From: a virus
DNA length: 52,313 nucleotides
IMG/VR virus record: IMGVR_UViG_3300037090_000125
Span: 1-52,313 of that record
Strand: one strand, 5' to 3'
Shown here piece by piece: positions 7,009 through 51,404 of this stretch; the stretch's first letter is position 1; every line of letters begins with the position of its first letter. Below the pieces are notes generated by a model. It was not told the origin of the DNA and ran no database searches. It was given only the letters and a program-made list of their open reading frames with translations. A program made the translations under genes and the position numbers.

Positions 7009-7244
7009 CTAGCCCTCCCGTCGTTCATGACATCCATTGCCGCTGCGCCAAGGCCTACTGGTTCGATTAGGGGTTTGTCTTTTTTCTTCCGTGCCTGATG
7101 GAGGTTGTTCATGGCCGCAAGAAGCATATCCATAGCCAAGTCGAGGTTATCCGGAATGCCGATTTGAAGCGTGCGGTTAGAAAGTGCGTGAATCACTACT
7201 TCGGCTTCGATTGTCGGTGCTGGGATTTTGGGTTGATTGCTCAC
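7005..7244 (-). CDS. Hypothetical protein, 79 aa
   Basis: Not recognised. It has a central helix LDLAMDMLLAAMNNLHQARKK and a Gly-Ala rich tail. It directly follows the portal gene, overlapping it by four bases (ATGA), and overlaps the next gene in the same way. Confidence 0.6.
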   Translation of the reverse strand: MSNQPKIPAPTIEAEVVIHALSNRTLQIGIPDNLDLAMDMLLAAMNNLHQARKKKDKPLIEPVGLGAAAMDVMNDGRAR

Positions 7245-9448
7245 TGTTGTGCTCCTTGTGGCATCGCTTGAGGTTGTCCTTGTGGCTGCCCCTGCCCGCC
7301 GCCTGCGAGCATCATCGGGCCTCCCTGTTTAAAGATTTTATCTGCGCTTGCACTTACTTCTTCGGGTATCCCCGCCTTCATCATGGCCGCTAAGGTCTGG
7401 TTCGCCGGTTTTACCTGTGGGAATAGCCGCTCAAATTCTTTTTCCGGCATGGCGATTATCTTTATCAAAGCGTCCAACAACTCCGGCTTGAGCTCCACTT
7501 GCATACCGGAGTTAAACATCCCGGTTTTCTGTAGCCTTTGAGCCGCCTGCATGAGAGGACCGCGTGCCTTCCTTGCAAGTATCTGGTCGCGGTTCGGCAC
7601 GTTGAAAATGTCAAGGATCGCTTCAGCATCGAGGAATCCGCCAGAGGCGAGCTTTAGCCACATTTCGCGCTTAGCCGATTTGCTTTGCGGTAATGTACTG
7701 CCGGCCTCAACGTTGAACGCGTATTGACCCTGGAACTGTTCGGCCACACCACGGAAGGCTATCGCCTCTTCGCCCTGACCGCCGGATAGTTTGATTTTCT
7801 TTTCAAACGAATACCAGTTCTGGCCGAGGCTTATATACATACGCCCTTGCTCTTCAAGGGACGTATCGAGGTTTCTGATCTTCTCGCGGAGAACAGATTG
7901 AGCTTTCTCCTGCAGGGCGGCAATGGCCGCAAATGCGGTTATCCCTTGTGCTCCCCGGCCTTCGGTTACATCGGTCAGGCCCGTAATGATATCTATGAAC
8001 TTCATGAGAAGCTCGATATACGCCCCGTAGTCGGTTGGGAGGTTCGGGACTTCCAGATACCGGATGAGAGCGGCCGCCGTCATTGTGGGCTCCCACACGC
8101 GCTCGGGCAGGTTGTTTATCTGCCTTTTCTCGAGTCCGGAGCCTTTCGGGTTGATAATCGGGGGCAGGCAGGCTGCATCCAAGTGAGAGCCGACTTTTGT
8201 AATCTTTTTGGCTATCTCGATTACAAGCGGTTCGATTTGCTCAATGATCGACAATCCGTATTCGGATAGACCGTCCGAGTAGCTGAGGCGCTTGAAAAAG
8301 GGAAACTTATCCCAAAGGTAACAGTCGGCGGCCTTCTCGAGCGGGAGTTGCGGGTTTATGCTTGGATTCGGCAGATCGTCTAAAACCAGATCGCCCTTGT
8401 TCGTAACGCGAATCCGGCGGAGAAATCCGGGGTATTTTGATTCCTGGTGAGGCTCGGCCTGCTTGATCGCCAACTGCATGGCCGGTTGTCCCGTCATGGG
8501 ATCAATCGCCGGTTGACCGCTCATTGGATCGATTACGGGTTGGGGTTCGAGATAAAGTAAATCGTTCGGGTTCGGCTTCCCGCTCGACCTTTTGCCCGTT
8601 ACCGGGTTCACCCACACGAAGGTGTAGTCTTTTACCCAGCAGGTAACGACGAGGGCCTTCTGAATACCGTAATTTTCTGTCTCGCTGGTGTGCTTATCAA
8701 CGGGCTTAAAGCTGTCGCCACCCACGCCTTGCGGGTATCCCGATTGCAGGTAGGGCCGGATGGTTTTCTGACTGACGTTGCCCCGCGTCTCGCGCCGATC
8801 TTCGCCGAGATTATTCGAAAACTGGGTATCGGATTTGACTTTTCCCTCGACGCCGGGGATTTGCCGATAGATCGTGTCTAACTCTATGGCCTCCATCTTA
8901 AAAAGCATGGGGGCCTTTTGGATGTCGATGTATCCCGGCCAGAGCACCGTTCCAAAGTTATCACCCAGAACTGTTTCTATTTCCCCCATGCCCCCGGCAA
9001 GCTCAGGATCGAACCTCATTTCGTCGGTCTGACAGCCGTAAAGCTCTGAGAGTCCCACCGATTCCTGAAGTGTGTTTTGCTGCCGGGTTGCGTCCCACCA
9101 TTCCTCGTAAGCCGCCTGCCAAGCGTTCGCCGCCTGGTCGCCAGCTTCGCCTCGGGGTTCGATGGATGCCTGCGGTTCGTTGTCGGTAAGTTCGGCCTTG
9201 AGCTTGTTCACCGTCTTGAAGAACAGATTGACGGGCACCTGTGTGATTTTGGGCTTGGGGTTTTTGAAGAACCGATTGCGGTACAGCTCGTGGTTGTGGC
9301 GCCATACGTCCGTTATGCCCAAGGTCTCGCGGTACTTCAGGGCAAACTTGAGCTTGCCCCACACCCACGCCCCCACGTTTTCAGAACCTTCCGGGGGCGG
9401 GGCAAGACGCCATGATTCCCAATCGGCGGATTTGGACGTTGCAGGCAT
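7241..9448 (-). CDS. Portal protein (P22-like)
   Basis: The 735-residue length and sequence fit P22-type portal proteins, which form the dodecameric DNA gate of short-tailed phages. The N terminus has NHELYRNRFF and VNLFFKTVNKLKAELTDNEP, and then LGDNFGTVLWPGYIDIQKAP, motifs usual in this family. Residues about 440 to 600 carry long helices, and the C terminus is Gln, Pro and Gly rich. The gene lies in the expected place between terminase and scaffold. A GAGGAT box precedes the ATG. Small coupled genes follow on both sides. Confidence 0.9.
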   Translation of the reverse strand: MPATSKSADWESWRLAPPPEGSENVGAWVWGKLKFALKYRETLGITDVWRHNHELYRNRFFKNPKPKITQVPVNLFFKTVNKLKAELTDNEPQASIEPRGEAGDQAANAWQAAYEEWWDATRQQNTLQESVGLSELYGCQTDEMRFDPELAGGMGEIETVLGDNFGTVLWPGYIDIQKAPMLFKMEAIELDTIYRQIPGVEGKVKSDTQFSNNLGEDRRETRGNVSQKTIRPYLQSGYPQGVGGDSFKPVDKHTSETENYGIQKALVVTCWVKDYTFVWVNPVTGKRSSGKPNPNDLLYLEPQPVIDPMSGQPAIDPMTGQPAMQLAIKQAEPHQESKYPGFLRRIRVTNKGDLVLDDLPNPSINPQLPLEKAADCYLWDKFPFFKRLSYSDGLSEYGLSIIEQIEPLVIEIAKKITKVGSHLDAACLPPIINPKGSGLEKRQINNLPERVWEPTMTAAALIRYLEVPNLPTDYGAYIELLMKFIDIITGLTDVTEGRGAQGITAFAAIAALQEKAQSVLREKIRNLDTSLEEQGRMYISLGQNWYSFEKKIKLSGGQGEEAIAFRGVAEQFQGQYAFNVEAGSTLPQSKSAKREMWLKLASGGFLDAEAILDIFNVPNRDQILARKARGPLMQAAQRLQKTGMFNSGMQVELKPELLDALIKIIAMPEKEFERLFPQVKPANQTLAAMMKAGIPEEVSASADKIFKQGGPMMLAGGGQGQPQGQPQAMPQGAQQ

Positions 9449-16851: not shown

Positions 16852-16867
16852 AACTTTCCTCCTACGG

Positions 16868-21271: not shown

Positions 21272-21292
21272 TTCGCGATTCCTCCTTGGCCT

Positions 21293-22607: not shown

Positions 22608-22628
22608 ATTCTCCGCCCCTCCCCGAGC

Positions 22629-23476: not shown

Positions 23477-23663
23477 CTCCTCCCCTTCTCCTATACGTGT
23501 TCCCCGTCATCCGTTCGCTCAGCAAAATCTTCCGGCACTCGGGGCAATTCAGGGCCTTGATGTACGGCTTGAAGTTCCGGCCACACGTATTGCACACTGC
23601 CTGGTGCCTATTACGGCCATTGGGGGGAACACGCGCCCTCCCATATCGAGTGCTATATGGCAT
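23463..23663 (-). CDS. Small zinc-ribbon protein, 66 aa
   Basis: CNTCGRNFKPY and NCPECRKIL form one C2C2 ribbon after a basic N terminus. It overlaps the radical SAM gene upstream and the multi-ribbon gene downstream, so the three are probably made together. Confidence 0.65.
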   Translation of the reverse strand: MPYSTRYGRARVPPNGRNRHQAVCNTCGRNFKPYIKALNCPECRKILLSERMTGNTYRRRGGDAKV

Positions 23664-24504: not shown

Positions 24505-24658
24505 CGGTTATATCCCCCTCCTGCTTTCCGCGATCTGCCCGGCTCGGATTGCGGCCATGAGGCGTTTCCACGCCTACCACCTCGAAGCCCGCCCTTGAGT
24601 AGCCCATAGCAGCCCCGCCGGCGCCACAAAACAAATCGAGCAATCGCGGTTTACCCAT
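24494..24658 (-). pseudogene. N-terminal fragment of a C5-cytosine DNA methyltransferase
   Basis: The first 30 residues contain LLDLFCGAGGAAMGYSRAGF and then EVVGVE, the motif I/II region of C5 methyltransferases. After that the reading becomes unrelated (PHGRNPSRADRGK) and stops at residue 54. The normal enzyme is several hundred residues, so the rest is lost. The last bases overlap the radical SAM start. A short expressed product is possible, but it cannot methylate DNA. Confidence 0.75.
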
Positions 24659-24881: not shown

Positions 24882-26015
24882 TTACCCCTGACTGAAGTCA
24901 GAGGCTTGCAGTTCCAAGAACGGGAGTAGTTGAGAATCAGCGTGGACTGCGATGGGCAAATTGACAGGGTTGCCCTTAAAACTAAGATTGATTGCGGCGT
25001 TTAAGTCCGCATGGGTTGTAAACCCGCATTTCGTACAGGAGAATAGGGCTTGAGACTTTCTATTTTTCTTAGATACAAAACCACACACGGAACAGGTTCG
25101 ACTCGTATTGCGGGGATTGACCGCAATTACAGGCACACCCTCCCGTTTGGCTTTGTATTCGATATATCCTCTGAGCTGCCCGAAGCTCCACCTCCCGAAC
25201 CGTTCTCTTTGCGCCTTGGAAACCGTTGTCCTGCCGTTGAAGCCTTTCAGGTCTTCAATTACGATTGCCCGGCAGGTGTCTTTAGCCAAAAAAACGATTT
25301 TCTTGCTGATTACGTGGTTCGTGTTCTTCTTGAATCTTGCCTCTTTACCGGAAAACTTTTTAAGGTGGCGTTTCGCAGACTTTCCGCCACGGCTTTGAAG
25401 TGCTCTTTTAAGTTCGGTTGCTTTCTCTCGGACTTTGTCCGTCGCTTCACCGGAGAAAGTATCTCCATCCGAAGTGGTGGCAAGACTAACGATTCCGAGG
25501 TCGACCCCCAGGAAACCTTTTGGTTCAAACTCAGGCAGTTCCGGAATTTCGCAGACCTGAAGCAGATAGAAAATTCCTTTGGAAAGCACAAGGTCGGCTT
25601 CACCTCTCCTGTGTTCGAGAAGTTCAAGTTGTTTTTTCCCTGCGAGAAAAGGAACTCGAAGCCTGCCCACAAGAGTCCAGATATTGACAGACTGATCTTT
25701 CATCTTCCAAGAAAGGATTCGGCTGTCGAAAGCGATGGAGCCGGTGTCTTTGAAAACTCGTTTCGTTTTCTTGTCTTTCTTGTACGAATCGGAAACCTTG
25801 GAAATGCACCGGATTGTCACTTGAGCGCCAAGGCCAAACTGTTCTTTCAGTTCAAAATATTTTGCCTTGTGAAGATCGTATTGTCGAAAGGTTTGCGATT
25901 CCCAAGCCCAAGAAGACAACGCATTGGCACATTCGTTCGAACGCAGAATCGTATCCATCAGGGCTTTGTGTTGCTCTGGCGTAGTCTGAAGTTTCACTTG
26001 GGCAATCAGTTTCAA
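24882..26015 (-). CDS. tnpB: TnpB RNA-guided nuclease (element 1)
   Basis: This 377-residue RuvC-type nuclease is an ancestor-like relative of Cas12. It has GVDLGIVSLA (first RuvC Asp), IVIEDLKGF (Glu), a zinc ribbon CSVCGF ... CTKCGF and THADLNAAINL (last Asp), so the catalytic set is complete. The start is taken as TTG 6 bases after GAAGGAT, reading MKLIAQVKLQ, the usual TnpB start; the longest frame begins inside the promoter -35 box and is ruled out. The stop lies in the right-end hairpin. TnpB cuts the empty donor site and so helps keep its element. Confidence 0.9.
   Translation of the reverse strand: MKLIAQVKLQTTPEQHKALMDTILRSNECANALSSWAWESQTFRQYDLHKAKYFELKEQFGLGAQVTIRCISKVSDSYKKDKKTKRVFKDTGSIAFDSRILSWKMKDQSVNIWTLVGRLRVPFLAGKKQLELLEHRRGEADLVLSKGIFYLLQVCEIPELPEFEPKGFLGVDLGIVSLATTSDGDTFSGEATDKVREKATELKRALQSRGGKSAKRHLKKFSGKEARFKKNTNHVISKKIVFLAKDTCRAIVIEDLKGFNGRTTVSKAQRERFGRWSFGQLRGYIEYKAKREGVPVIAVNPRNTSRTCSVCGFVSKKNRKSQALFSCTKCGFTTHADLNAAINLSFKGNPVNLPIAVHADSQLLPFLELQASDFSQG
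24885..24904 (-). repeat. Right-end hairpin of element 1
   Basis: On the minus strand it reads CCTCTGACT-TC-AGTCAGGGG: a six-base perfect stem extended by two more pairs. It differs by one loop base from the right end of element 2. The last codons and stop of tnpB lie inside it. Confidence 0.8.
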
Positions 26016-26040
26016 GGCATATCCTTCTTTTGTTTGAAGG

Positions 26041-26069
26041 ATTATAGATTTAAAACAGCGGCGTGTCAA
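26041..26069 (-). promoter_or_regulatory. Consensus sigma70 promoter of tnpB, element 1
   Basis: TTGACA (26069..26064), a 17-base spacer and TATAAT (26046..26041) on the minus strand match the consensus perfectly. The tnpB TTG start follows about 25 bases later. Confidence 0.8.
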
Positions 26070-30351: not shown

Positions 30352-30765
30352 GTGAGAGAGTGCCTGGTTGATAGAGACATCGATGAGCCGATAGAAACGA
30401 TTCGAGATAAAACGGTCCGCTCAAAAAAGGCAATGAAGTGCGGGGAATGTGGAAGAGACATCCCGTCCGGAACTCCATTCCGTATCGAAGTGGGCCGCCT
30501 GGACGGTGATTATACCCACAACATAACCTGCCTCACCTGCTTGGAACTCAGGAATCGGTTTTGCTGTTCATGGTGGTATGGAGGCATCCTCGAAGACATT
30601 GTTTATGAACTGGAGGAAAACGGCGGAGCATTGGAACTCGGATGTCTTGACGGATTGAGCCCTGACGCATTCGGTTTTATTGCTGACACGCTGGATCAGA
30701 TTTGGAGCGAGGACGATAACGCCGCCGAGATAGACCGGCTGCAAAGGGCCGAGAAAGGGGAATGA
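30352..30765 (+). CDS. Zinc-binding protein, 137 aa (GTG start)
   Basis: The longest frame reaches back into recT in another frame. A strong GGAGG box precedes GTG, giving MRECLVDRD. KCGECGRDIPSG and ITCLTCLELRNRFC form a zinc site, as in proteins that carry treble-clef or ribbon folds. The C terminus is acidic. Function unknown. Confidence 0.65.
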   Translation: MRECLVDRDIDEPIETIRDKTVRSKKAMKCGECGRDIPSGTPFRIEVGRLDGDYTHNITCLTCLELRNRFCCSWWYGGILEDIVYELEENGGALELGCLDGLSPDAFGFIADTLDQIWSEDDNAAEIDRLQRAEKGE

Positions 30766-31205
30766 TGAACGACAGTAAGTTGATAAAAAAAATAGCCGAC
30801 ATGTATCGTAACGAATGGACTACCGCCGAAGTCTACGCAGAACAGGCGATAACCATGGTTCGCGAGCACGACAAGCCGGAAGTTGAGCAACTCCGCGCCG
30901 GACTCGCTACATTGCGCGAAATGAATGCCGCGCTTCGCATGGCAATAAAGCGTGAGGCCCTGGCAGGTTATCGCAACCATAAAGCCTATGAGCGAGTCAA
31001 GGCCGAACTCGCCAGCGGGGCGGAGGTGTGGCTGGCAGAAGATACGGATGGTAATCGGTATATGAGTCTCGATGAACCTATTTTTCTGCCCGATGATGGA
31101 GAGATGTCATTCACGGACGGCTTTGAGTTACCAAACACCTGGATGGACGAATTGTTGTCACCCGGCGAGTGCCGTCGCGCCCTAATCGTGCTGGACGCCC
31201 AATAA
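30762..31205 (+). CDS. Hypothetical protein, 147 aa
   Basis: The protein is mixed alpha/beta: a helix ADMYRNEWTTAEVYAEQA, a coiled-coil-like LRAGLATLREMNAALRM, and a C-terminal part with LAEDTDGNRY. Two ATG codons overlap the previous stop. No family recognised. Confidence 0.65.
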   Translation: MMNDSKLIKKIADMYRNEWTTAEVYAEQAITMVREHDKPEVEQLRAGLATLREMNAALRMAIKREALAGYRNHKAYERVKAELASGAEVWLAEDTDGNRYMSLDEPIFLPDDGEMSFTDGFELPNTWMDELLSPGECRRALIVLDAQ

Positions 31206-31267
31206 TGACCCGCTGGCTTTCCATGCCCGTAGCCGACTCGCAAAGGAGGAAAGATGAATTGGATTAG
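31205..31267 (+). CDS. Possible 20-residue peptide
   Basis: MTRWLSMPVA opens a short frame that overlaps the previous stop (TAATG) and holds the AAAGGAGGAAAG box of the next gene. A similar start, MKWLSMPLA, occurs at 32782 directly after the broken DUF551 gene. Translation is uncertain. Confidence 0.35.
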   Translation: MTRWLSMPVADSQRRKDELD

Positions 31268-31541
31268 TACTGCAGACCAGTTACCACAGGGCGGAGTCCG
31301 GGTGCTCTTCTGCTTCCGGAACGATTTGGATAAACACAGGACTGCCCTAGGTTGCTATAGCCTGGCACGCACCGAGGAATCACATATTGATAACTGTGAT
31401 GGTGATTGCGTGGACTGCTCTATCGGCGACATGGATAATAACGGACAATGCTGGAGGCCCGAGGGATGGTATGAGGAGCCGAATGAAGCTGAGTTTTATA
31501 AACACCTTTCGAGAAAACCTCCGGTTTCAACCGGGGGATGA
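31254..31541 (+). pseudogene. DUF551 gene, 5' part, interrupted by element 2
   Basis: MNWISTADQLPQGG and VRVLFCF are the start of a DUF551 protein, common in phages and of unknown function. Native coding ends at codon 82 (31499), where transposon element 2 enters. The remaining codons to the stop at 31541 (KHLSRKPPVSTGG) come from the transposon left end. The missing C terminus lies at 32729..32785. The protein may still be made in truncated form. Confidence 0.8.
31518..31537 (+). repeat. Left-end hairpin of element 2
   Basis: CCGGTT and AACCGG pair around TC, extended by a G-T wobble and two C-G pairs. The flanking GAAAACC matches the left end of element 1. Confidence 0.75.
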
Positions 31542-31553
31542 ATCAAAAAAGTG

Positions 31554-31583
31554 TTGACTTTCCAACATAGTTAAGCGTAAAAT
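31554..31583 (+). promoter_or_regulatory. Promoter of tnpB, element 2
   Basis: TTGACT (31554..31559), an 18-base spacer and TAAAAT (31578..31583). The tnpB ATG follows directly at 31590, so the transcript would be almost leaderless. Confidence 0.65.
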
Positions 31584-31589
31584 AACAAC

Positions 31590-32696
31590 ATGCTTAAAAA
31601 TTACCGATACCGTATCCAACCGACCAAGAAGCAAACAAAAGCCCTTGAGAATGTTCTTGAGGAATGCCGATGGCTATACAATCATTTCCTGTCTGGACGA
31701 AAGGATTCTTGGGAAACCAAGCAGGAGGGTGTCACCTACTACGACCAGACAAGGAGCCTTCCAAACCTCAAGAAAGAACGAGCATCTCTCAACGAAGTTC
31801 ATAGCCAGACGCTTCAAAACGTGGCGGTCCGAGTTGATCTTGCTTTCCAGGCGTTTTTTCGAAGAACCAAAAAAGGAGAAAAACCCGGCTATCCTCGTTT
31901 TAAAGGAAAGGGACGATACGACAGCATAACTTTCCCCCAGGTCCCTTCGGGCTGTTCCATTAAAAACGGCAGACTCTTCGTTTCCAAGATCGGCCACATT
32001 AAGATTGTTCAGCATCGTCCGCTCGGTGGAATACCAAAGACCGCCACTATCTTTCGTTCTTCTACGGGCAAATGGTATGTCACTTTTGCCACTGCCGTTG
32101 AGCCTAAAGTTTTGCCTGTAAGGGACAACCCGGTCGGTATTGATGTTGGCCTTCACACCTTCGCTGCCCTCTCCGATGGAAACATAGTGGACAATCCCTG
32201 CTTTTTTAAGAAGGAAGAGAAGCGGCTTGCAAAAGTCCAACGCAAACTTTCCAAAGAAGCGAAGGGTACTCCTGAACGGTTCAAACGTCGTAAGATCGTC
32301 GGCAGAGTTCACGAACGCATTCGGTTCAAGCGTGAGAACTTCACCCATCAGGAATCCCGAAAGATTGTTGACGGATATGGACGAATCTTCGTTGAAGACC
32401 TGAACGTCAACCGAATGGTTCACGACAGTTGCCTTGCAAAGAGCATTTCGGATGCAGCTTGGTCGCAATTCTTCGCCATGACCCACTACAAAGCGGTAGA
32501 AGCTGGTAGAGTGTTCACGGCGGTTAACCCGGCCTACACATCGCAAACATGCAGCGGATGCGGACACCGGCAACCAATGCCCTTGTCTAAGCGTATCTTT
32601 GAATGTCCCTGCTGTGGTTTGCATATCGACCGAGACCTCAATGCTTCCCTAAATATTCTCCGCTTGGGGATACAAGCGGTGGGTGAAAATCCCTAG
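31590..32696 (+). CDS. tnpB: TnpB RNA-guided nuclease (element 2)
   Basis: The 368-residue protein has NYRYRIQPTKKQ at its start, VGIDVGLHTFAA (RuvC Asp), IFVEDLNVNR (Glu), a zinc ribbon SGCGHRQ ... CPCCGLH and DRDLNASLNIL (last Asp). All catalytic positions are present. It is from a different TnpB lineage from element 1, with little matching sequence outside the motifs. The omega RNA would run from the 3' end of this gene into the right-end hairpin and the DUF551 remnant, which would serve as guide. Confidence 0.9.
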   Translation: MLKNYRYRIQPTKKQTKALENVLEECRWLYNHFLSGRKDSWETKQEGVTYYDQTRSLPNLKKERASLNEVHSQTLQNVAVRVDLAFQAFFRRTKKGEKPGYPRFKGKGRYDSITFPQVPSGCSIKNGRLFVSKIGHIKIVQHRPLGGIPKTATIFRSSTGKWYVTFATAVEPKVLPVRDNPVGIDVGLHTFAALSDGNIVDNPCFFKKEEKRLAKVQRKLSKEAKGTPERFKRRKIVGRVHERIRFKRENFTHQESRKIVDGYGRIFVEDLNVNRMVHDSCLAKSISDAAWSQFFAMTHYKAVEAGRVFTAVNPAYTSQTCSGCGHRQPMPLSKRIFECPCCGLHIDRDLNASLNILRLGIQAVGENP

Positions 32697-32699
32697 AAG

Positions 32700-32719
32700 C
32701 CTCTGACTTTAGTCAGGGG
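32700..32719 (+). repeat. Right-end hairpin of element 2
   Basis: CCTCTGACT-TT-AGTCAGGGG, the same as the right end of element 1 apart from one loop base. Confidence 0.8.
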
Positions 32720-32728
32720 AGTATTCAC

Positions 32729-32785
32729 TACTCCGTAAGTTATTCAGTGACCCACTGGCAACCACTGCCCGAGGCCCCGAAATGA
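32729..32785 (+). pseudogene. DUF551 gene, 3' part, after element 2
   Basis: The frame reads YSVSYSVTHWQPLPEAPK and stops. VTHWxPLPE is the usual end of DUF551 proteins. It joins codon 82 of the 5' part in frame when the element is removed. Confidence 0.8.
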
Positions 32786-32826
32786 AATGGCTTTCCATGC
32801 CCCTGGCGTGTGAGTGAGATGCCCCC

Positions 32827-34572
32827 CTACCACGTCCTCGCCGCCCCTTGTGACACCGGACCCGCACCTGTTGTGTACGGTCCCACACTTCCACCTTGCC
32901 AAGAATAGGCCCCGATGTCCCAGGCGCCGGTTGCGGGCCGCGCGGTGCCTGCGAGGTCCGAACATAGGGCATTTGGCAGTGATCCGCCGTTCTGAATGCA
33001 AAGACTTGATAGATTGACCCCCTTGCCCACAGTAGCCGATGACGATACAGCTATATAATTGCTGTCAAGTCCCAACGTGCCGGTGCAGCAATCTCCATTG
33101 CTATATAGTCCCGTATTGATTGAATGCTGCTCCTGACCGTAAGAGCCTGCATCCGTTAAATACTCGCTCCAATTACTGTTTGCTCCCGGAATGAAAGTAC
33201 CAAAAACGTGACCATTAGGGCCGCCAGTTATAGGAGAACCGGAATAAGCATTATAGTCGGCAGTGATGCCGGTATTGTAGGTGCCATTCAGTTCATCGTC
33301 CCCGTTTAGATAATCAAACCCCTGGACGGCGTTGTTCTCGAAAGCGAAAGTATAGCTGTTCTGCGATATGCCGCTCCAATGGATACCGGACCCTGCGCTA
33401 TTAGGCCCTATCGTATTTATGACTGTATTATTATAAGCCGTATTCCCGTTCCCGCCACCATCAATTATGCCGGATTGATTCATGGTTCCGTTCTGAGTCA
33501 CTATAAGGTTGTTAAACATTGATGAGTTATTAATGAATGCTCCAGTCGAGTTGGTCGCAGATAGGTATAATGCACCATAAAGACACGCACTAGAGTCGTT
33601 GATGATATTGTTGTAAATATAAAGATCGTTGAATGCAGTTGTGCCTGAGTTGACGCTGGAATGGAAACCTTCTATGTGATAGACACAACCACTTGTATCA
33701 AAATTCTCGAAGTCGTGTAGGTAATTACCGTAAATATACCCACCAGACATTGTTCCGCTGGTTAAATTACTCGTCCAGTAAAACGGATGTGGAGTGTTAT
33801 AAACATTGTTATTATATATCTGGATGTTGCTGTCACCATTCGACCCAAGATACCACATGCACCACCCAACATCATGCATGTCACTATCATGTATAAGAAT
33901 ATTGGTGCCTGAAAACACCATGCAGCTATCATAGCCAATGTTTGCAGTGGTAGCTCCGGAAGTTTGCTGATACATATTGTAGATGCCAATGTTTCTCACT
34001 TCACAGTTGGTACAGTTTAACAGCGCAATCGCATTAGTCTTGCCACCATCGTAGGCAAGACCTGCGCCCATTTGCGTGTTCACGATAGAGCCGTTGCATG
34101 TGCCTTCGCTGGTATTGGTTGCCACATTCCAGCCGCAAGGAGTATTTAGGCCACCATCGACCGTGATAAAACTCCGGGGGGTCGACGGCGTACTCATTAC
34201 TAGACATCCCGAATTATTCCCTTGACCATCCATGCAAGAAGGGGCGCTTAATTGAGCACCGCTTTCAAACAGCAAAGTAATAGGATTCCCAGACGTACCG
34301 CTACCCTGGAAGGTTAGGATATTCTCGTTCCCCGTGTTAGGACCATAGATCGTTCCGCAGATATGGACCGTATCTCCTGGACTTATCTTGCCGGAGGTCC
34401 CGGTTGTGCTGCTCCAGTTGCTAGGAGTGTTGAACCACGTGTAGGCGTAGGCGTTGACACACGAGGTTCCGTTTGCCGATTGAGCCGCTGATTGCGCGAT
34501 GTAGTAATCTGCGGCGCAAACATCCGAAATGGCCAAGAATAATAGAAATATTAGAAGTATTGTTTTTTTCAT
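32827..34572 (-). CDS. Tailspike-like right-handed beta-helix protein with Sec signal
   Basis: The 581-residue protein begins with a signal peptide (MKKTILLIFLLFLAISDVCA, likely cut before ADYY). It then has repeated short strands with Asn/Gly/Ser turns (FITVDGG, CEVRNIGIYNMYQ, ILIHDSDMHDVGWC, YIYGNYLHDFENF, NDLYIYNNIIN), the pattern of parallel beta-helix proteins such as polysaccharide lyases and phage tailspikes. It is the last gene of the late module. A signal peptide is unexpected for a virion protein; it may instead be exported as a free depolymerase. Confidence 0.7.
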   Translation of the reverse strand: MKKTILLIFLLFLAISDVCAADYYIAQSAAQSANGTSCVNAYAYTWFNTPSNWSSTTGTSGKISPGDTVHICGTIYGPNTGNENILTFQGSGTSGNPITLLFESGAQLSAPSCMDGQGNNSGCLVMSTPSTPRSFITVDGGLNTPCGWNVATNTSEGTCNGSIVNTQMGAGLAYDGGKTNAIALLNCTNCEVRNIGIYNMYQQTSGATTANIGYDSCMVFSGTNILIHDSDMHDVGWCMWYLGSNGDSNIQIYNNNVYNTPHPFYWTSNLTSGTMSGGYIYGNYLHDFENFDTSGCVYHIEGFHSSVNSGTTAFNDLYIYNNIINDSSACLYGALYLSATNSTGAFINNSSMFNNLIVTQNGTMNQSGIIDGGGNGNTAYNNTVINTIGPNSAGSGIHWSGISQNSYTFAFENNAVQGFDYLNGDDELNGTYNTGITADYNAYSGSPITGGPNGHVFGTFIPGANSNWSEYLTDAGSYGQEQHSINTGLYSNGDCCTGTLGLDSNYIAVSSSATVGKGVNLSSLCIQNGGSLPNALCSDLAGTARPATGAWDIGAYSWQGGSVGPYTTGAGPVSQGAARTW

Positions 34573-35357
34573 TGGATCGCGTCAACTATTAGAACCCAAT
34601 AGCTCGTGGTGTCTGTCCATCCGACCGTGACATTACTCAAGGCAGAAGTTTCTATCTGATATGCGGCATTCATTATTTGTGAGTAGGTAGCCCCGCCATT
34701 TTCTAGAGGCATTCCGGTAAAAGCCGATAGACCAGCAGGTGTCAATGTGCTTACACTTCCTTGGTTGCCGGTTCCATAAACAGCGAACACCAGTGGACTT
34801 GTGCTTGTCGTTGATACTCCGGTCGCATCACATGCCGAGGGTGTCCCTGAGTTATTTGTTGCGTATTTCGGCAGTGAGGCGTTCACGTCCCAGGGGGTGC
34901 TGGTGTTTGCTCCGGCCACTGCAAAGGCCAAAAGACAACCATCATCTATCGTGCCGCTATAGGTGACTGTGAGAGTATAAGTCCCAGCGGTGGGAGCAAT
35001 GGCCCACCACACTTCATTGTCCTGATAATGGGCCGAGCTGGAATTAATGATTTGTGATGATCGGTTTGTGAACGCACCAACTCCGCCAGAACCGGACACA
35101 CCACTGACCGACATTGCGAAACTCTTGTCGTTCTCTAGCGTGGAAACGAGAATCAAAACACGGTTTAGGCCTGACGTGGTTACGTTTATAGTCTCGGATG
35201 AAACGTCGGTTATAGCGCTCGAAGATGCCACCCCTTCGATAGTCTTTATGCTTCCGCCCCCGCCCGCCATGATGCCCGATAGGATTTGCTGAGCGTGTGC
35301 CTGTGGCGCGAATAGGAGGAGGCCGAGAAGGACGATTGGTATTAGGTATTTCTTCAT
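34569..35357 (-). CDS. Secreted beta-sandwich protein, 262 aa
   Basis: The start MKKYLIPIV follows a perfect AGGAGG box; the upstream frame lies in the previous gene. Residues 1 to 22 are a signal peptide ending HA. The mature protein is rich in Thr, Ser and Ala with strands typical of a beta-sandwich (LNRVLILVSTLEN, GTYTLTVTYSGTIDDG, YWVLIVDAIQ). It may bind sugar or join the tailspike. It overlaps the tailspike gene by four bases. Confidence 0.65.
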   Translation of the reverse strand: MKKYLIPIVLLGLLLFAPQAHAQQILSGIMAGGGGSIKTIEGVASSSAITDVSSETINVTTSGLNRVLILVSTLENDKSFAMSVSGVSGSGGVGAFTNRSSQIINSSSAHYQDNEVWWAIAPTAGTYTLTVTYSGTIDDGCLLAFAVAGANTSTPWDVNASLPKYATNNSGTPSACDATGVSTTSTSPLVFAVYGTGNQGSVSTLTPAGLSAFTGMPLENGGATYSQIMNAAYQIETSALSNVTVGWTDTTSYWVLIVDAIQ

Positions 35358-35365
35358 GTTGCCTC

Positions 35366-36988
35366 CTAATATGCAGTCCATGTGCCTTGAGCATTGTTGA
35401 TGTTGTAATGCGTTCCGTCAACTGAATGAATGCAAATCGCGTCCTTAACCGCACCACCTGAAGTCAGACCGTGCCCTGTGCCTGCCGTGCCGTAAGCCGT
35501 TCGTGCCTGATTCTCAATCATCACACTGGCTGGCATTGCAAGAGTTATAACCGTGCCTACGTTAGTCCCGTTCTCAATGCAAAACTGATATTCAGATCCT
35601 GCTGCGGGACCGGCTATAGCAGTTACGGTACACGTCGTCGAACACGTCCACATATCCGCCGGGGCCGCTAACGTATGGGTTGTCCCCGTATTGCCAACAA
35701 CAGGCGGAACGTGAGCCGCTGTCAGGCCGGTTGTGTCGGCGTTAACTGCTGCCTTTCCCGCTATGTTTCCGTCCAACTTATCAATAGCCGACAAAAGAGT
35801 ATCACCTGTACTAATCGAACCGGCACCAGAAACAAATCCCGTGATTGCCGAAGATAGGTTGATCCCCCCCAAACCCGCCAGAGTGTATGGAGCCGTATTA
35901 CACGCAAACAACGTCCCTGACGCCGTGTAGGTGCATAGGTCGCCGTCTGTCAGCGTGCCGGGGAGAAGCCCAAGATTCACCTGAGTTGCCGTCCCCGTGG
36001 ACCACTGGCCCACGAGCACAGAGCCGTTATAGAAAAACCTGAACCATATCGACTGATTGACAGGCGGCAGGACCGGGGATAAGCCACCTTCCCAGGTGAT
36101 CGAAGGGCTGCTGGAAAAAGTCAGCGTTGACACGACACTCGCGGGCATGGTCAGTCGGACGAAGAAAGGCATGTTCGTCGGGTAAGGGGAAAGCGTTACC
36201 GTTGCGGCAGTTGACGCCGTGAGCGTTCCCCAATTCTCGTTATACGTCGAGCAGTCCAGCGTGGCCGTGCTGCCTATTGTGCCGCTGTTGTGGTAGGAAG
36301 CCACATTCGGGACGGCCACATCCGTCAAATTCGTACAGGCTGTCGGCTCACCGTTGGCATCAGAGCAAGCCACATGCGAGGCCGTGACTGAGACGCCCTT
36401 GGCATTTGTTCCCGTAGTCCAAACCGGCCACTGGTGAATAGTTGGAGGCCCCGAGCTTGTTACGGTGCCTGTGGGAAGCGCTCCCTCATCTTCAAGTACC
36501 TTGCCCGAAGTATCTGCAAACCCGGCCAAGTGGTGAATCGTTGAGCTTGCGGCCCCGGTGACGTTGCCAGTGCCTGTGCCGTCCTGCCCTGCGGGCCCCT
36601 GTGCCCCCTGTGGACCCGTCGGACCCGCTGCCCCCGCTGCGCCGTTCGTCCCATTTGTCCCGTTGGTGCCGTTGGTTCCTGCCGCGCCCGTGGCTCCTGT
36701 AGCTCCTGCTGGCCCGGTGGGTCCAGTGATTACCGCCGCCTCGCTTATCCACGCCGAGCCGTTCCATTGCTCAAGGACAGAGTTACTGGACACGTAGATG
36801 CCGGATACCTTCAGCGTCGGATTGGACGTGAAATAGGCGTCGCGGGCTCCATCGTTGGCGAAGATGAAGGCAGAAGGGACCGTGAGAGAACTACCCGTGC
36901 CACCCCCGCCGAAAAAACCCGCGTATCCATATCCGGCCAGAGAGACGAGCACCAAAGAGAGGATGAGTATTGAGATAATTTTCTTCAA
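35366..36988 (-). CDS. Secreted collagen-like fibre protein, 540 aa
   Basis: Start is TTG, 6 bases after AAGGAGG, giving MKKIISILILSLVL and a signal peptide ending GYA. A longer frame upstream overlaps the gene before it and puts residues before the signal. After about 65 residues comes a Gly-x-y collagen-like repeat of about 55 residues (GPTGPAGATGATGAAG, GTNGTNG, GPTGPQGAQG), then beta-rich Thr/Ser domains with repeated VTASHVACSD- and TLTFSSSPS-like strands. Collagen repeats are common in trimeric tail fibres. The signal peptide is unusual. Confidence 0.7.
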   Translation of the reverse strand: MKKIISILILSLVLVSLAGYGYAGFFGGGGTGSSLTVPSAFIFANDGARDAYFTSNPTLKVSGIYVSSNSVLEQWNGSAWISEAAVITGPTGPAGATGATGAAGTNGTNGTNGTNGAAGAAGPTGPQGAQGPAGQDGTGTGNVTGAASSTIHHLAGFADTSGKVLEDEGALPTGTVTSSGPPTIHQWPVWTTGTNAKGVSVTASHVACSDANGEPTACTNLTDVAVPNVASYHNSGTIGSTATLDCSTYNENWGTLTASTAATVTLSPYPTNMPFFVRLTMPASVVSTLTFSSSPSITWEGGLSPVLPPVNQSIWFRFFYNGSVLVGQWSTGTATQVNLGLLPGTLTDGDLCTYTASGTLFACNTAPYTLAGLGGINLSSAITGFVSGAGSISTGDTLLSAIDKLDGNIAGKAAVNADTTGLTAAHVPPVVGNTGTTHTLAAPADMWTCSTTCTVTAIAGPAAGSEYQFCIENGTNVGTVITLAMPASVMIENQARTAYGTAGTGHGLTSGGAVKDAICIHSVDGTHYNINNAQGTWTAY

Positions 36989-36998
36989 ATTTGCCTCC

Positions 36999-37358
36999 TT
37001 ACCTTGGCTGTGACCCGATGATTGCTTTACCGTTCGTTCCACTGATCGCCAGATAGATTCCGCTCGGACAAGCCACGGGGATCTCGAAAGTTACGCCGCA
37101 AAAATAGCTTGCACCAGGACAGACGAATTGAGCGACCGCCACACCTCCCGCCGATGCTCCGTTGTAGACGGTGGCGGTTACGCTGTTGGTCCCATCCGTG
37201 ATGATCTCCGCAGAGGTGAGGGCATATGATGCGCCGCTCGTACCCACCACCCCGCTTGACGCCAGAAGTCCGCTGCTGGTCGAGTAGGATTCAAGAGCCC
37301 AACACGGCGCTGCGATCAGAAGTGCCAGGATTGCGAATAAAAGAATCTTTGTCTTCAT
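36999..37358 (-). CDS. Small secreted protein, 119 aa
   Basis: The signal peptide MKTKILLFAILALLIAAPCWA precedes a beta-rich mature part with SAEIITDGTNSVTATVYNG, two Cys near the middle and a third near the end (PVACPSG). The sequence resembles small phage proteins that follow a neck or tail gene. It precedes the collagen-like fibre by 10 bases and may be its chaperone or partner. Confidence 0.65.
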   Translation of the reverse strand: MKTKILLFAILALLIAAPCWALESYSTSSGLLASSGVVGTSGASYALTSAEIITDGTNSVTATVYNGASAGGVAVAQFVCPGASYFCGVTFEIPVACPSGIYLAISGTNGKAIIGSQPR

Positions 37359-37373
37359 GCTCGTCCTTTCAAA

Positions 37374-37577
37374 TCAGTACGCAAATTCGTCATCGAAATT
37401 GCCGTTAGCATTATCTTCAATACAGGTGACTCGAACTTCAGCGCCGAGAGCTTTCGCCTGCTTTATCGTTTCGGTTCCAGCACTAACGCAAGCCATCTCA
37501 TGCTTAAATGGCTGAGTATTGACGGTCACATTAGCGTTCGGACCAAGCAGAAAAATTAAAAGTATCCATGTTCCCAT
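37374..37577 (-). CDS. Small protein with hydrophobic N terminus, 67 aa
   Basis: MGTWILLIFLLG is hydrophobic and may act as an anchor or weak signal. The rest (FKHEMACVSAGTETIKQAKALG, VTCIEDNANG) has a Cys pair like small periplasmic phage proteins of unknown role. Downstream genes encode clear Sec proteins. Confidence 0.6.
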   Translation of the reverse strand: MGTWILLIFLLGPNANVTVNTQPFKHEMACVSAGTETIKQAKALGAEVRVTCIEDNANGNFDDEFAY

Positions 37578-38945: not shown

Positions 38946-40289
38946 TTAGGCTGCCTTCTTTGATTCTTTGGCTTCGAGATCGGCGCCCGCATATTCCTTG
39001 GCTTTCTCTATCTCCGGCCTCATTTCTTCCAAAAAGTTTTTAGTGTAATCCATTCGGTAGACCTTGAGCTGCTTGGCCCGATCTTCTACGAGTTCCCCGA
39101 CTTCATCCACGGAATTGCCTACGGCTACAATGCTGCCAAAATGGCCCCCGCATTTATTTTCGATGCAGTAAAGTTCCCCGTTGTCACGCTTTGTGACGTT
39201 GCGAAGCAAGAACCATTCTTGGAGTTCCTCGGAGACTTTGGGGATATGAATTTCGTGACGCTCGTGCCATGATGATGAAAGAATTATTTCGGCGCCATAA
39301 AGATATTCGGGTTTGAGGATAGGGAGTCTGTCATGGGCAAGATCATAGATCGCCTGTGCGTAGGATCGACCGTAAACCTTCAGAAGCGTGGATGTCGGCG
39401 GGTTCGGTGCCCGGCAGCAATCATCCATCGGGTAGGCTACACCTTTTTTTGTAACACGGACCTCGTTTGAAAATATCCCAGCGAAACCGAGCTTTTTGTA
39501 AATGGGTTCCTGCTTTCTCTCGATTTCGGCGAGGATTTCGGGTGGTTCTTCCGTCCATCTGCCGATATAGAATTGAGCCTTCTTTTCAAGGCCCCAGAAG
39601 CCTTTCTTGGGAGTTTTCCCGTTCAGCATAAAGGGGCCATCGCGGCCTATCTCTACCGCATCCGGGATGTCTTTTTGCACGAGCAATTTGATATTGTTTG
39701 AGCGGTGAACGCCAAGCTCGGCTCTTTTTTCATTGAAGACAACTTCGGTCTGAAAAGGGTCTTCGTGGTAATCGGTCTCCCAATCTGAACGGTATCGCTC
39801 AGCCGCCTTTATCCAGAGTTTTTCGTGCTTGTTTTTCAGAAATTCCCAAGTGGCATCCAGTCCTTCGAAGTACCACGTTTTCGGGACCGGCAAACCTGCT
39901 TTGTGAAGTTCATCGATGAAGTAATGTTTATCCAGCTCCATTATTTCACCGCCGAGAGCACCGCATACGTTATAGCCGTGACGTTTGTAATAGATTTGGT
40001 CTTCCTGATAGTTTACGTCCGGGTACAGAATCACCGTCGCCTTGTCGATGTATTTCTTATAGTCGGGCACCCACTCAATATCGTCGAAGCCCCTACCAAT
40101 AACGTGCTGTGAAGATTCAAGAAAGGCGGCTGCAATGGGCTTCGTATACCAGACGTGGCCGAACCACTTGGCGCAATGCTGAGCGATCATTGGATACATG
40201 CCGTTGTCGATGACGAGCAGCTTTTCCTTTGACAGATCCGCTTCCGGCTTCGGTTTTTCCTTCGGCTTCTGGATGAGCTTAATATTCAT
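38946..40289 (-). CDS. ATP-grasp enzyme, 447 aa
   Basis: The N-terminal part has KLLVIDNGMYP and a Rossmann-like set. From residue 110, GGEIMELDKHYFIDEL, LPVPKTWYFEG and LWIKAAERYRSDWETD follow the order of ATP-grasp enzymes related to PurD. SNEVRVTKKGVAYPMDDCCRAPNPP then matches their metal and substrate loop. Such proteins form amide bonds on carboxylates. Its position between internal virion and tail fibre genes suggests it modifies a phage or host product; the substrate is unknown. Confidence 0.65.
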   Translation of the reverse strand: MNIKLIQKPKEKPKPEADLSKEKLLVIDNGMYPMIAQHCAKWFGHVWYTKPIAAAFLESSQHVIGRGFDDIEWVPDYKKYIDKATVILYPDVNYQEDQIYYKRHGYNVCGALGGEIMELDKHYFIDELHKAGLPVPKTWYFEGLDATWEFLKNKHEKLWIKAAERYRSDWETDYHEDPFQTEVVFNEKRAELGVHRSNNIKLLVQKDIPDAVEIGRDGPFMLNGKTPKKGFWGLEKKAQFYIGRWTEEPPEILAEIERKQEPIYKKLGFAGIFSNEVRVTKKGVAYPMDDCCRAPNPPTSTLLKVYGRSYAQAIYDLAHDRLPILKPEYLYGAEIILSSSWHERHEIHIPKVSEELQEWFLLRNVTKRDNGELYCIENKCGGHFGSIVAVGNSVDEVGELVEDRAKQLKVYRMDYTKNFLEEMRPEIEKAKEYAGADLEAKESKKAA

Positions 40290-42870: not shown

Positions 42871-44552
42871 TATTTAACCACCTCCCACGCAGTACCTTCA
42901 GCATTGAGTCTCATTTTTTGCCCCGTGGTCGGGTTCACGATCTCAGTGGGGGTATCGGTCCCGCCCGCTTTCGTTGCCGATCCTGCGCCCCCAGCCCCCG
43001 TCTTCTTTTTGTAATTTCCGGGGTCTTGAATCTTTCCCTCCAAGGTTGCGGACTCGTCCTCTATCGCCTTCTTCCGCATATCCGCAAACTTATTAACGGT
43101 GCTGAAGAGTTTTTCCAGATCGGTCGTTTTGTAGTTGTAATTCATTATGTCGTATAGTTGCTTGCTGGTTTCGCCCAAAGGTGCGGCTACACCGAGAGAC
43201 CCCGATTCGACCTTGGCGGCTTCTTGGGAAAGAGAAAGCATGGCAAATTGCAAGGCCGCTATGTCTCCATCGCCAACCGTACCCTGTTTGATATGATTCG
43301 CTGCTTGGCTTACCAGTTTGGGCCATTCTTTGCCGTACTGAGCGCGAAGCCTGAGCATCTCGGCGCTGTTTGATTTGACGGTGTTCGAGAATTGTTCTGT
43401 CGCCGCAAGCCGGTCTTCGTTTTTCTTGAGCGATCCCTGATCAGCCTTTACTTTGCCCTGAATAGCTTGGACTTCGGAAGGATCAATCCCCTTCGCCGTA
43501 AGGTACCTTCTGTAATCTTCTTCCGCCGCATTCCGGCTGCTTCTATCCCCAAAGGCTACGGTAATCGGCTTCCCGGTCAGGATTCGGTCCTTAATGGCAC
43601 TTTCTTTTTCTTCCGGGGTCCAATTCGCATAAGAGGAAGGTCCGGATGCCGCGCTGCTGTATATGTCGTTGAGTTCTTTCTTCGTGGGTTTCCGCCCCTT
43701 GTCCTCGACAAAAGCATCGACTGCGGCTTGCTGTTGTGCGTTGGGCTTGCCAGCGGCGCCCCGTACAGCATCGGCCATACTCTCTCGGGAATCTCTGCCT
43801 GCCTGCGCGTTTGCCTGGATGTCTCTTTCCCTTTGCTGAAAATCTTGTTCGTGTTGTATCCGGCCCTGATCCGTACCGTACTTTGTCTGAGTCTGCCACC
43901 CCTGCTGAAGCAATTCTGCCGTTTTGGGGTCTCCCTCGTGGCCCTGATATTCTTGCTTACCATCGGGCGAAACCAGCCACGTTATGCCCTTGGGTGTTGC
44001 GTTGGTCTTAATCAGATCGGTATTGGCCCCGATATATCTTGTTGGCGAGACCTCCCCTGTTTGTTCGTTCAGTGTGGCGAAACCCTTGCTCGGATAATTC
44101 ACTTGCTGCGGCGCCTGCTGTTGTTGTTGCCCCCCTCCGGTAAGACCATGGAGTATCTTCATAACCGGATTTTGCTGTTGCGGTTGCCCTGCCTGCCTGA
44201 GTTGCTGCATAGGGGCTTGCAGGGGGGCTGGTTGCACCAAACCGTCAGGTGAGGATTGCTGTTGCCCTTGTGCTGGCTGATCAGCCGGGGCGGGTTGCGC
44301 CGGTTGCCCCTGTTCCGGCGCCCCCGCCTGCCGAAGATCGTTTAAGTGGATGCCGTATTTTTTCGCCTTTCCGGCTTCTTCGTCCGTAAGATTCATGCCT
44401 GTATCTTTCGGATGCACGGACTGATTGGCGGCGAGTTGTTCCATGAAGTTCGTCCGACCTTCTTTTTCCTGTTTCTGTTGGAACTCTTTGTATCCCGTAT
44501 ATAGCTTGTAAAGACCGGGGATAAGCCCTTCGCCGCCCATAAGTATTCCCAT
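42870..44552 (-). CDS. Gln-rich internal virion protein, 560 aa
   Basis: It has a short N-terminal helical part and a long Gln/Pro/Gly-rich low-complexity region from about residue 75 to 155. The helical C-terminal part includes TVKSNSAEMLRLRAQYGKEW and MLSLSQEAAKVESGSLG. This layout is like podovirus ejection proteins that leave the head with the DNA. It abuts the M15 protein gene by a one-base overlap. Confidence 0.65.
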   Translation of the reverse strand: MGILMGGEGLIPGLYKLYTGYKEFQQKQEKEGRTNFMEQLAANQSVHPKDTGMNLTDEEAGKAKKYGIHLNDLRQAGAPEQGQPAQPAPADQPAQGQQQSSPDGLVQPAPLQAPMQQLRQAGQPQQQNPVMKILHGLTGGGQQQQQAPQQVNYPSKGFATLNEQTGEVSPTRYIGANTDLIKTNATPKGITWLVSPDGKQEYQGHEGDPKTAELLQQGWQTQTKYGTDQGRIQHEQDFQQRERDIQANAQAGRDSRESMADAVRGAAGKPNAQQQAAVDAFVEDKGRKPTKKELNDIYSSAASGPSSYANWTPEEKESAIKDRILTGKPITVAFGDRSSRNAAEEDYRRYLTAKGIDPSEVQAIQGKVKADQGSLKKNEDRLAATEQFSNTVKSNSAEMLRLRAQYGKEWPKLVSQAANHIKQGTVGDGDIAALQFAMLSLSQEAAKVESGSLGVAAPLGETSKQLYDIMNYNYKTTDLEKLFSTVNKFADMRKKAIEDESATLEGKIQDPGNYKKKTGAGGAGSATKAGGTDTPTEIVNPTTGQKMRLNAEGTAWEVVK

Positions 44553-49593: not shown

Positions 49594-50277
49594 TCAGTAT
49601 GCAAAGCAGCTAACGGCAACGGTATCGCCCGATGCCCAGGCATGAGAAGCTGCCGCCGTTGTAAATTCGCCTATGGTCGCCGTGGTCTGCGCCGATGCCG
49701 TCTGTCTGCACTGGAAAACAGTGCTGGAATAGGTAGATATATCGTTGCAGAAGCAGTTCCATCCGGTGGTCGCCGTGGGAAGCGTGATTACTCCTGTCGC
49801 TGCCGACCCACCAGTGCCCACATTCACAGTAAAGGACGCCGTGCCGTTGTTGTTGGAAATCGAAGGGTTTGTGCCGAATCCCGAGGCTATTGTTGGCGCC
49901 GTTGACGACAGGAGAACATGGCCGCCGTTTGGCACAATGTTCGCAAATGGAACAGCGGTTGACTCCACAGGGATGCCGGTTGCGCCCGTAGACATAACCG
50001 CATTATTTACCGGAGAGATGTATCCTGTGACCCCTGCGGAGCTCTGATACGGAATGGAGTTTACGACTGCACCGGCCAGGTTGAAATTAGCCTCCATCCA
50101 GGTCAAAACGCTGCTAAGCGTCATTTTGTAGACGGCGGAATTATAGACCGAGTAAAGATATGCCGCTGAAGTCGGGGATAGTGTGGGCTTATTTTGAAGC
50201 TGAAAATACGTCTGTGCGCGGCACGGGAACGCCAGGGCCAGAAGAAGCGCGACGGTTAAGAATGCTTTTTTGAGCAT
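49594..50277 (-). CDS. Secreted tail-associated protein, 227 aa
   Basis: A signal peptide (MLKKAFLTVALLLALAFPCR, cut before QTYF) is followed by LQNKPTLSPTSAAYLYS. The C-terminal 100 residues (SGFGTNPSISNNNGTASF, TGVITLPTATTGWNCFC) match a domain seen at the ends of phage tail proteins (S..GT.PSI..NNGT..F.V.VGTG). Its combination with a Sec signal and place between tail hub and adaptor is odd. Confidence 0.65.
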   Translation of the reverse strand: MLKKAFLTVALLLALAFPCRAQTYFQLQNKPTLSPTSAAYLYSVYNSAVYKMTLSSVLTWMEANFNLAGAVVNSIPYQSSAGVTGYISPVNNAVMSTGATGIPVESTAVPFANIVPNGGHVLLSSTAPTIASGFGTNPSISNNNGTASFTVNVGTGGSAATGVITLPTATTGWNCFCNDISTYSSTVFQCRQTASAQTTATIGEFTTAAASHAWASGDTVAVSCFAY

Positions 50278-50288
50278 GACTGCCCTTT

Positions 50289-51404
50289 CTATGAAAAATA
50301 GTCGAAGAACTGAACTGCCGATTCCGATTGATCAGCAAACGGGCTCATCTCCCGGAACTCGGTCGCCAAATCCTCGAAGCGTTGCTTACCTTCGCCGGCT
50401 TTTGCCTGCTGAATGAGCCCCTTGTAGCTCGACCTGCCCAAGGTATAGACCGCCCATCCGACGATTGCGTCAATGTAGTCGGCGGGAATCTCGGGGACCA
50501 TGCTCAGGTAATTGGCGCTGACCGGCATAGGCTTTCTGACAACATCCAGGATCATATTGTCGTGGAATGCCGTTATGTCTCCGACCGTCCCCATTGATTG
50601 AGTGCCGTCCGTTGAAAGGGTTGAAATCGTCCAGAGCACTCCCGCGGGAATGTCTATCGCCAGTCCCCAATCAGGCAGAGGAATTACTGCTGTATCGCTT
50701 GCGGCCCAATTCCCGCCCATCGCTGCCGCGATAGTGTCGTTTGATGCGTGCGTCGTTATGATCTCTGTGATAATTCCGGACAGAGACTGAGTGGCGTTGA
50801 AGATCGGAAGGCCAGCGGTTAGCCCCAAAGTCGTCAGGTCTGTTCCTGCCGAATCGATGAAGCCGGCGGTTGCACTCAAGGCCGTTCTCGATACCGCCCC
50901 CGGCCATGAAGTGCCGGGGTTGAAGGCAACACACCCGGAATTTGCAGCGTTGAAAGTCGTTCCGTCCGTTGACGGGAACATCGATATACCGAACTGAATC
51001 ACCCCGCCCCGGTAGCTCGGGAAAAGATAATAGGCGGGGCTTCCAAGGGCGCCGCGAAAGTCGAGCACTTCATCTTGCAGCTCGCGGGCACTACCCTTGA
51101 TGGTAAGTTCCTGGTAGCTCATCCGGTCGTCGCCGTAGTAGTAGCGGGCGCTGAGTATTTTTTGGCAAAAATCAGGCAGCCGATAGTGCTGGATATTGTT
51201 TTGGACCACTATCAAAATCGGCATGGTTAGGCACTCGGTCAGGAGCGTGAACCGGGATTGCCCGGCGTTTAGTGCCTGGATGATACTGGCCAGCGGGTAT
51301 CTATTGTAATCCCCCAGGGCCACCCCGAGCCATGTTTGAACATCGTTCACACAGTCTTGCGTGGTCTTCGATACTGAATCGGACCTATAAAACGAATAAC
51401 TCAT
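50289..51404 (-). CDS. Head-tail adaptor protein, 371 aa
   Basis: The N terminus has helices with YPLASIIQALNAGQSRFTLLTE, and the C terminus VPEIPADYIDAIVGWAVYTLG, which flank a beta-rich insert of about 200 residues. Such helix-LN.aQ...P.y..ai..wa architecture is found in neck/adaptor proteins of podoviruses (gp4-like). The large insert is not typical. It precedes the secreted protein and the tail hub. Confidence 0.55.
   Translation of the reverse strand: MSYSFYRSDSVSKTTQDCVNDVQTWLGVALGDYNRYPLASIIQALNAGQSRFTLLTECLTMPILIVVQNNIQHYRLPDFCQKILSARYYYGDDRMSYQELTIKGSARELQDEVLDFRGALGSPAYYLFPSYRGGVIQFGISMFPSTDGTTFNAANSGCVAFNPGTSWPGAVSRTALSATAGFIDSAGTDLTTLGLTAGLPIFNATQSLSGIITEIITTHASNDTIAAAMGGNWAASDTAVIPLPDWGLAIDIPAGVLWTISTLSTDGTQSMGTVGDITAFHDNMILDVVRKPMPVSANYLSMVPEIPADYIDAIVGWAVYTLGRSSYKGLIQQAKAGEGKQRFEDLATEFREMSPFADQSESAVQFFDYFS

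Follow-up and report, generated by a model that had tools for sequence, protein, structure and literature searches.

Five genes in the tail module of the virus genome analysed here encode proteins that, as read directly from their N-termini, are very probably exported through the Sec pathway; what probability remains goes to an uncleaved membrane anchor or a misreading. The window, i.e. the whole stretch of 52,313 bp that was analysed, comprises virus record IMGVR_UViG_3300037090_000125 in full. An exact 127-bp direct repeat is found at both termini and the junction of this terminal repeat is read through by another contig (G002), and we therefore regard the window as a complete virus genome. 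G002, which is among the closest IMG/VR contigs found and about 100% identical to the window, stops short of the region with the exported genes. The portal (P22_portal), the adaptor (SU10_adaptor), the terminase and the major head protein assign the window to the P22/SU10-type podophages, and judged by its sequence the genome as a whole is such a phage, with both of the following genes present:

7241..9448 (-), portal protein, P22-like (PF16510 and phrog_156)
50289..51404 (-), adaptor protein, SU10-type (PF24175, E 6.4e-7)

No tape-measure gene was seen on reading the window. Searched against phage records, the portal matched only Methanosarcina virus MetMV (25% identity over 84%); an archaeal host was not accepted on this basis, the window having a lipoprotein gene and a muramidase, and a search with the portal in bacterial and archaeal genome contigs found no relative. 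Three IMG/VR relatives of the window are considered below: G001 (IMGVR_UViG_3300018046_000002), which is syntenic and has a head protein 87% identical; the more distant G006 (IMGVR_UViG_3300028800_000180), which is also syntenic; and L050 (IMGVR_UViG_3300037099_000049). Among the other genes of the window, a two-domain CrtC/Lipocalin_9 protein lies within the tail module at 44552-45544 (-) (Pfam E 8e-27 and 8e-26) and is unexpected in a phage, and two genes at 31590-32696 (+) and 24882-26069 (-) resemble, when read by eye, TnpB-type transposon proteins, the first with CxxC zinc-finger motifs.

N-termini were read and then scored with a home-made, rule-based Sec/SPI predictor, in which a score of ≥10 is a positive call and on which 17 known exported E. 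coli proteins score 8.8-11.9. The five genes are as follows, a slash marking the cleavage site:

32827..34572 (-), spike-like protein of 581 aa; signal residues 1-20, score 11.83; MKKTILLIFLLFLAISDVCA/ADYY
34569..35357 (-), protein of 262 aa, probably a beta-sandwich; signal residues 1-22, score 11.84; MKKYLIPIVLLGLLLFAPQAHA/QQIL; upstream sequence ATTAGGAGGCAAC-ATG
35366..36988 (-), collagen-like fibre of 540 aa with a TTG start; signal residues 1-23, score 10.76; (TTG)KKIISILILSLVLVSLAGYGYA/GFFG; upstream sequence AAGGAGGCAAAT-TTG
36999..37358 (-), small beta-rich protein of 119 aa; signal residues 1-21, score 10.72; MKTKILLFAILALLIAAPCWA/LESY
49594..50277 (-), fibre-like protein of 227 aa, between the adaptor gene and a nozzle-like gene; signal residues 1-21, score 11.34; MLKKAFLTVALLLALAFPCRA/QTYF

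The sites given for the 540-aa and 227-aa proteins are our own reading, the score having chosen a nearby alternative in each; the other three are as predicted. All five genes show the n/h/c architecture of signal peptides with A-x-A-type cleavage sites, and their scores (10.7-11.8) fall inside the range of the exported E. coli proteins. The first mature residues (A, Q, G, L, Q) do not include a lipobox Cys. The only other true-looking signal match in the window is a lipoprotein of the lysis region (16444-16890). An earlier note on this DNA, made from the sequence alone, had pointed out clear signals on the four consecutive genes between 32827 and 37358 and on the gene at 49594, which is borne out by these scores; a weak fifth signal that it saw at 37374 lacks a basic n-region, received no call from the predictor, and is dropped from the set. 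This gene and the two that follow it are listed here as neighbours:

37374..37577 (-), protein of 67 aa with a hydrophobic N-terminus (MGTWILLIFLLGPNANV...) and no convincing signal; it belongs to phrog_3766, a small uncharacterised phage family
37596..38942 (-), protein of 448 aa with a coil-like N-terminus and a beta-rich body, without a signal in the window; a domain search gave only families of unknown function
38946..40289 (-), conserved gene for a 447-aa protein, preceding the exported set in the window, G001, G006 and L050

The 447-aa gene has homologues with 70% identity in G001 and 39% in G006; it weakly resembles ATP-grasp ligases (PDB match to an ATP-grasp enzyme at E 0.16), and a search of 50,697 phage records gave no hit to it.

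Signals of this kind are unusual for tail-module genes, as the earlier note had maintained. While 5 of 18 tail-module ORFs in the window, 5 of 17 in G001 and 4 of 15 in G006 score ≥10, a single one of 105 late ORFs does so in five reference phages (P22, BPP-1, SU10, lambda and EBPR podovirus 3), and this one is lambda Lom, which is not a virion part. It is highly improbable that the signals are due to chance or to misread starts, i.e. that the real starts lie downstream and the signals are untranslated, or that they are meaningless hydrophobic stretches. This reading draws on the use of a home-made predictor and on two genes whose ORFs extend beyond the signal-peptide start: that of the 262-aa protein is readable from 35381 and that of the 540-aa protein from 37042. 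However, AGGAGG or AAGGAGG precedes the ATG at 35357 and the TTG at 36988, and since ribosome binding sites fit there, the shorter starts were taken as the true ones. Ribosome binding sites are present at most signal-peptide starts, the 581-aa gene being instead translationally coupled by overlap, and shuffled N-termini attain a score of 10 in only 0.05-0.1% of trials.

Comparison with related genomes, which the earlier note had proposed, showed that the signals recur in both syntenic relatives; podo- and myoviruses that are unrelated, as well as phages in culture, have them too. By signal score, the exported genes of G001 are:

21706-22320
22302-23039
30398-30760
30771-33431
33644-33910

A clear homologue in the window exists for only one of them: the 119-aa protein and its 120-aa counterpart share about 53% identity and two Cys residues, and their signals have diverged in sequence with the design retained, which also speaks against chance. 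Differences between the pair by codon position are 42/40/73 over 116 codons, the third position being the most variable. In G006, four consecutive signal-peptide genes (20131-24518) are flanked on one side by the homologue of 38946-40289 and two small genes and on the other by the endolysin gene; one of the products, of 471 aa, is a right-handed beta helix. Taken together, the two genomes indicate that place and signal are conserved and the protein bodies exchanged. An acidic, scaffold-like gene of G006 (L046 7740-8831) has a hydrophobic leader (MKKLLKLILLFPAMLMLGNLEGLDAA) with a score of 6.9-7.2, below the threshold, and may represent either a membrane-tethered scaffold or a wrong start.

Signals are also gained and lost on related proteins. 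The 38946 homologue of L050 is immediately followed by a gene (11389-end) that begins with MERSLKSFVLAVAVIVCLGLSSTPASA/KK behind an AGGAGG site, and the body of its signal-bearing product aligns with the 448-aa protein, which has no signal in the window (40% identity over 285 aa, E 1e-44). Conversely, a 188-aa protein of L050 (4173-4739) without a signal opens like the post-cleavage segment of the 227-aa window protein (E 2e-5), a match that covers only 38 residues, the two genes lying on opposite sides of the nozzle-like gene. Such changes are easiest to understand if the job of the protein is the same with and without export.

The mature parts resemble tail fibres and spikes to varying degrees. 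The 540-aa protein matches Collagen (PF01391) and tail-fibre PHROGs, chiefly across the collagen repeat, and the 886-aa protein of G001 has hits to PHROGs of virion and tail-spike proteins, with a stretch of 47 residues that also matches the PDB entry of the SU10 tail fibre. No fibre or spike family was matched by the 581-, 262-, 119- and 227-aa proteins in Pfam and PHROG searches, the 581-aa protein having no match in either; this protein, tailspike-like in the earlier note, is a putative beta-helix by our reading of its sequence. AlphaFold2 models of the mature 581-aa and 119-aa proteins were of no use (pLDDT 34.7 and 46.8), and tblastn with the 581-, 270- and 227-aa proteins and a 204-aa protein of G001 against the 50,697 phage records gave no match. 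Among the exported proteins of the window, Pfam recognised neither an N-terminal virion-attachment domain nor an Ail/Lom-type barrel domain, and no lysis domain was found.

Cys makes up 1.57% of the mature exported proteins; in 25 other proteins from the window and G001, all of them virion or late structural ones, it is 0.51% (Fisher p ~5e-8, with residues treated as independent). The excess is uneven: the mature 581-aa protein has 16 Cys in 561 aa, whereas the 886-aa and 245-aa exported proteins of G001 have little. Enrichment of the mature parts is expected of proteins that fold in an oxidising compartment, and it is one of the points that make it unlikely that the hydrophobic N-termini are uncleaved anchors, which would hold tail parts at the inner membrane while they are assembled and not release them into the periplasm. 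Further points against such anchors are the canonical cleavage sites with small residues, the short h-regions, and scores like those of exported E. coli proteins; in their favour are the low-scoring leader of the G006 scaffold-like gene and the fact that hydrophobic N-termini alone do not prove cleavage.

The combination of a signal peptide and a fibre body is more widespread. With a DNA pattern for MKK...A...GG[ST]GATT we searched viral contigs and 257 Gb of bacterial and archaeal genomes. Six viral contigs matched, one of them G006, and five of these encode genuine fibre proteins with signal peptides; two of the five carry genes that we read as contractile-tail baseplate genes. The sixth viral contig (L015) and all 12 matches in the bacterial and archaeal genomes were chance or non-fibre matches. 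The architecture thus looks viral rather than bacterial, and this distribution, together with the recurrence of the arrangement in unrelated phages, is a further argument against chance. Cultured phages are included: signal-bearing fibre-like proteins are gp19 of Burkholderia phage BcepC6B and orf35 of Xanthomonas phage PBR31, and gene 24 of Rhodoferax phage P26218, which lies two genes after a spike-like gene and adjoins the lysis genes, scores 11.27. In Shewanella phage vB_Sb_QDWS (OK094664; L018 19998-22061) a signal is found at the conserved start. The public annotation of this phage starts the gene at 20805, 269 codons downstream, which removes the signal and suggests that exported fibres are probably under-annotated. 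PBR31 additionally encodes gp40 (L032 8188-8850), an esterase with a signal peptide that resembles tail-associated hydrolases, alongside the exported fibre-like protein; the paper on PBR31 describes the signal peptide of gp40 and does not discuss that of orf35 (PMC10975493).

What the exported proteins do can be read in two main ways. The earlier note had offered free export or assembly after export; the signals on which it built are genuine, but there is evidence both ways on this choice and the sequence does not decide it. The explanation that we favour over free proteins, with somewhat less than even confidence, is that exported fibres and spikes fold in the periplasm and that at least some of them join virions at lysis. 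Distal tail appendages (fibres, the spike-like protein and small beta-rich proteins) would be made with cleavable Sec signals and would cross the inner membrane late in infection, where signal peptidase I would remove the signal. Folding would then take place in the periplasm, which is oxidising and rich in chaperones, in parallel with the cytoplasmic assembly of heads and tail cores. Once the lysis proteins open the cell, virions would encounter the periplasmic pool, and the attachment of at least some exported proteins would complete their assembly. The sequences themselves support the signals with their cleavage sites, their position in the tail module, the fact that they recur and are gained and lost, and the enrichment in Cys; we infer from them that the proteins are actually exported and cleaved, that they fold in the periplasm, that this happens late, and that they attach at lysis.

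Attachment at lysis is favoured because signals are gained and lost, because the exported appendages are many and varied, and because of the situation in G006, in whose late region no fibre or spike without a signal was recognised, so that its virion adhesin would be among the exported proteins, unless one escaped recognition or the contig is incomplete. It is also supported by the matches of mature parts to fibre or virion families. Such attachment is feasible, since in extracts the tailspikes of P22 and the long tail fibres of T4 can be added to particles that are otherwise complete.

Alternatively, the proteins might be free adhesins or depolymerases that are exported into the periplasm, reach envelope debris at lysis and never join the virion, a possibility to which we give less credence. 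Such proteins would attach to nascent O-antigen, capsule or outer-membrane receptors, or trim them, and thereby prevent superinfection of the dying cell and the loss of progeny to debris. The cultured phages fit this alternative better. BcepC6B gp19 and PBR31 orf35 align to the C-terminal halves of the tail-fibre family phrog_11393, up to its last position, and a domain search did not find the T7 attachment domain (PF03906) in either; this domain is present in relatives of the C-terminal part of gp19 that have no signal peptide (Pectobacterium phage Nobby gp45, Klebsiella phage KpV74 gp48). In gp19 and orf35, the signal takes the place of the different N-terminal sequence, such as the T7-type domain, of homologues that are attached to the virion, and the exported genes of BcepC6B and PBR31 sit beside a fibre or spike gene without a signal. 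Exported genes moreover tend to adjoin lysis genes, PBR31 also carries the signal-peptide esterase gp40 (PMC10975493), and the tailspike-like glycanase WceF of Pantoea, a bacterial protein, is exported in free form by the Tat pathway (PMC7949094). However, blocking a receptor would not require as many as four or five different appendage-like proteins to be exported by one phage, G006 has no other recognised adhesin, and related proteins gain and lose their signals. Our proposal in its full form is offered tentatively: assembly might be split between compartments. Heads and tail cores would be made in the cytoplasm, and host Sec would export the receptor-binding appendages, which would acquire disulfides on folding in the periplasm and join the virion only at lysis, a route gained or lost via the signal peptide.

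Both exported phage proteins (SAR and other exported endolysins, spanins, Lom, Llp-type blockers) and fibres and spikes are already known. Known podophage fibres and tailspikes (P22 gp9, SU10 gp12, the PF03906 T7-type, phrog_11393) are similar to the proteins of the window in their position in the tail module and in their beta-rich, collagen-like or fibre-family bodies, with some direct sequence matches. In contrast to the window with its five Sec signals, they have no Sec signal, and their synthesis and assembly are cytoplasmic; gp19 and orf35 differ from T7-type fibres in having no T7-type attachment domain. Lambda Lom and Bor likewise have Sec signals on genes among tail genes, but Lom is by annotation an outer-membrane barrel and Bor a lipoprotein, whereas the window proteins are fibre- or spike-like, have SPase-I sites and occur in sets of four or five. 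Endolysins and spanins are, like the window proteins, late phage proteins that use the host Sec pathway, but no lysis domain was found in the window proteins. T5 Llp, a small lipoprotein, and N15 Cor are receptor-blocking exclusion proteins, i.e. exported proteins by which a phage blocks its own receptor. A decoy function of the window proteins would work alike; these, however, are large, fibre-like, without a lipobox and encoded in the late tail module. Pantoea WceF is tailspike-like and exported as are the proteins described here, but is encoded by a chromosomal exopolysaccharide gene without phage context and uses Tat instead of Sec (PMC7949094). In the open-access literature searched we found exported endolysins, spanins and Lom and no description of Sec-exported tail fibres or spikes, and the suggestion of the earlier note that this is a candidate for an undescribed strategy is upheld.

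Tail fibres and spikes set host range and are, by the textbook, virion parts made in the cytoplasm. That Sec-exported versions recur as a set in phages with different kinds of tail, cultured as well as uncultivated, means either that final assembly takes place outside the cytoplasm or that free receptor-binding proteins act at the envelope. Either reading affects the annotation of tail-fibre genes, as illustrated by the QDWS record, in which the signal is cut off. If attachment at lysis is true, it would represent a new assembly strategy; the finding suggests that the outermost tail parts of these phages act, or get attached, outside the cytoplasm.
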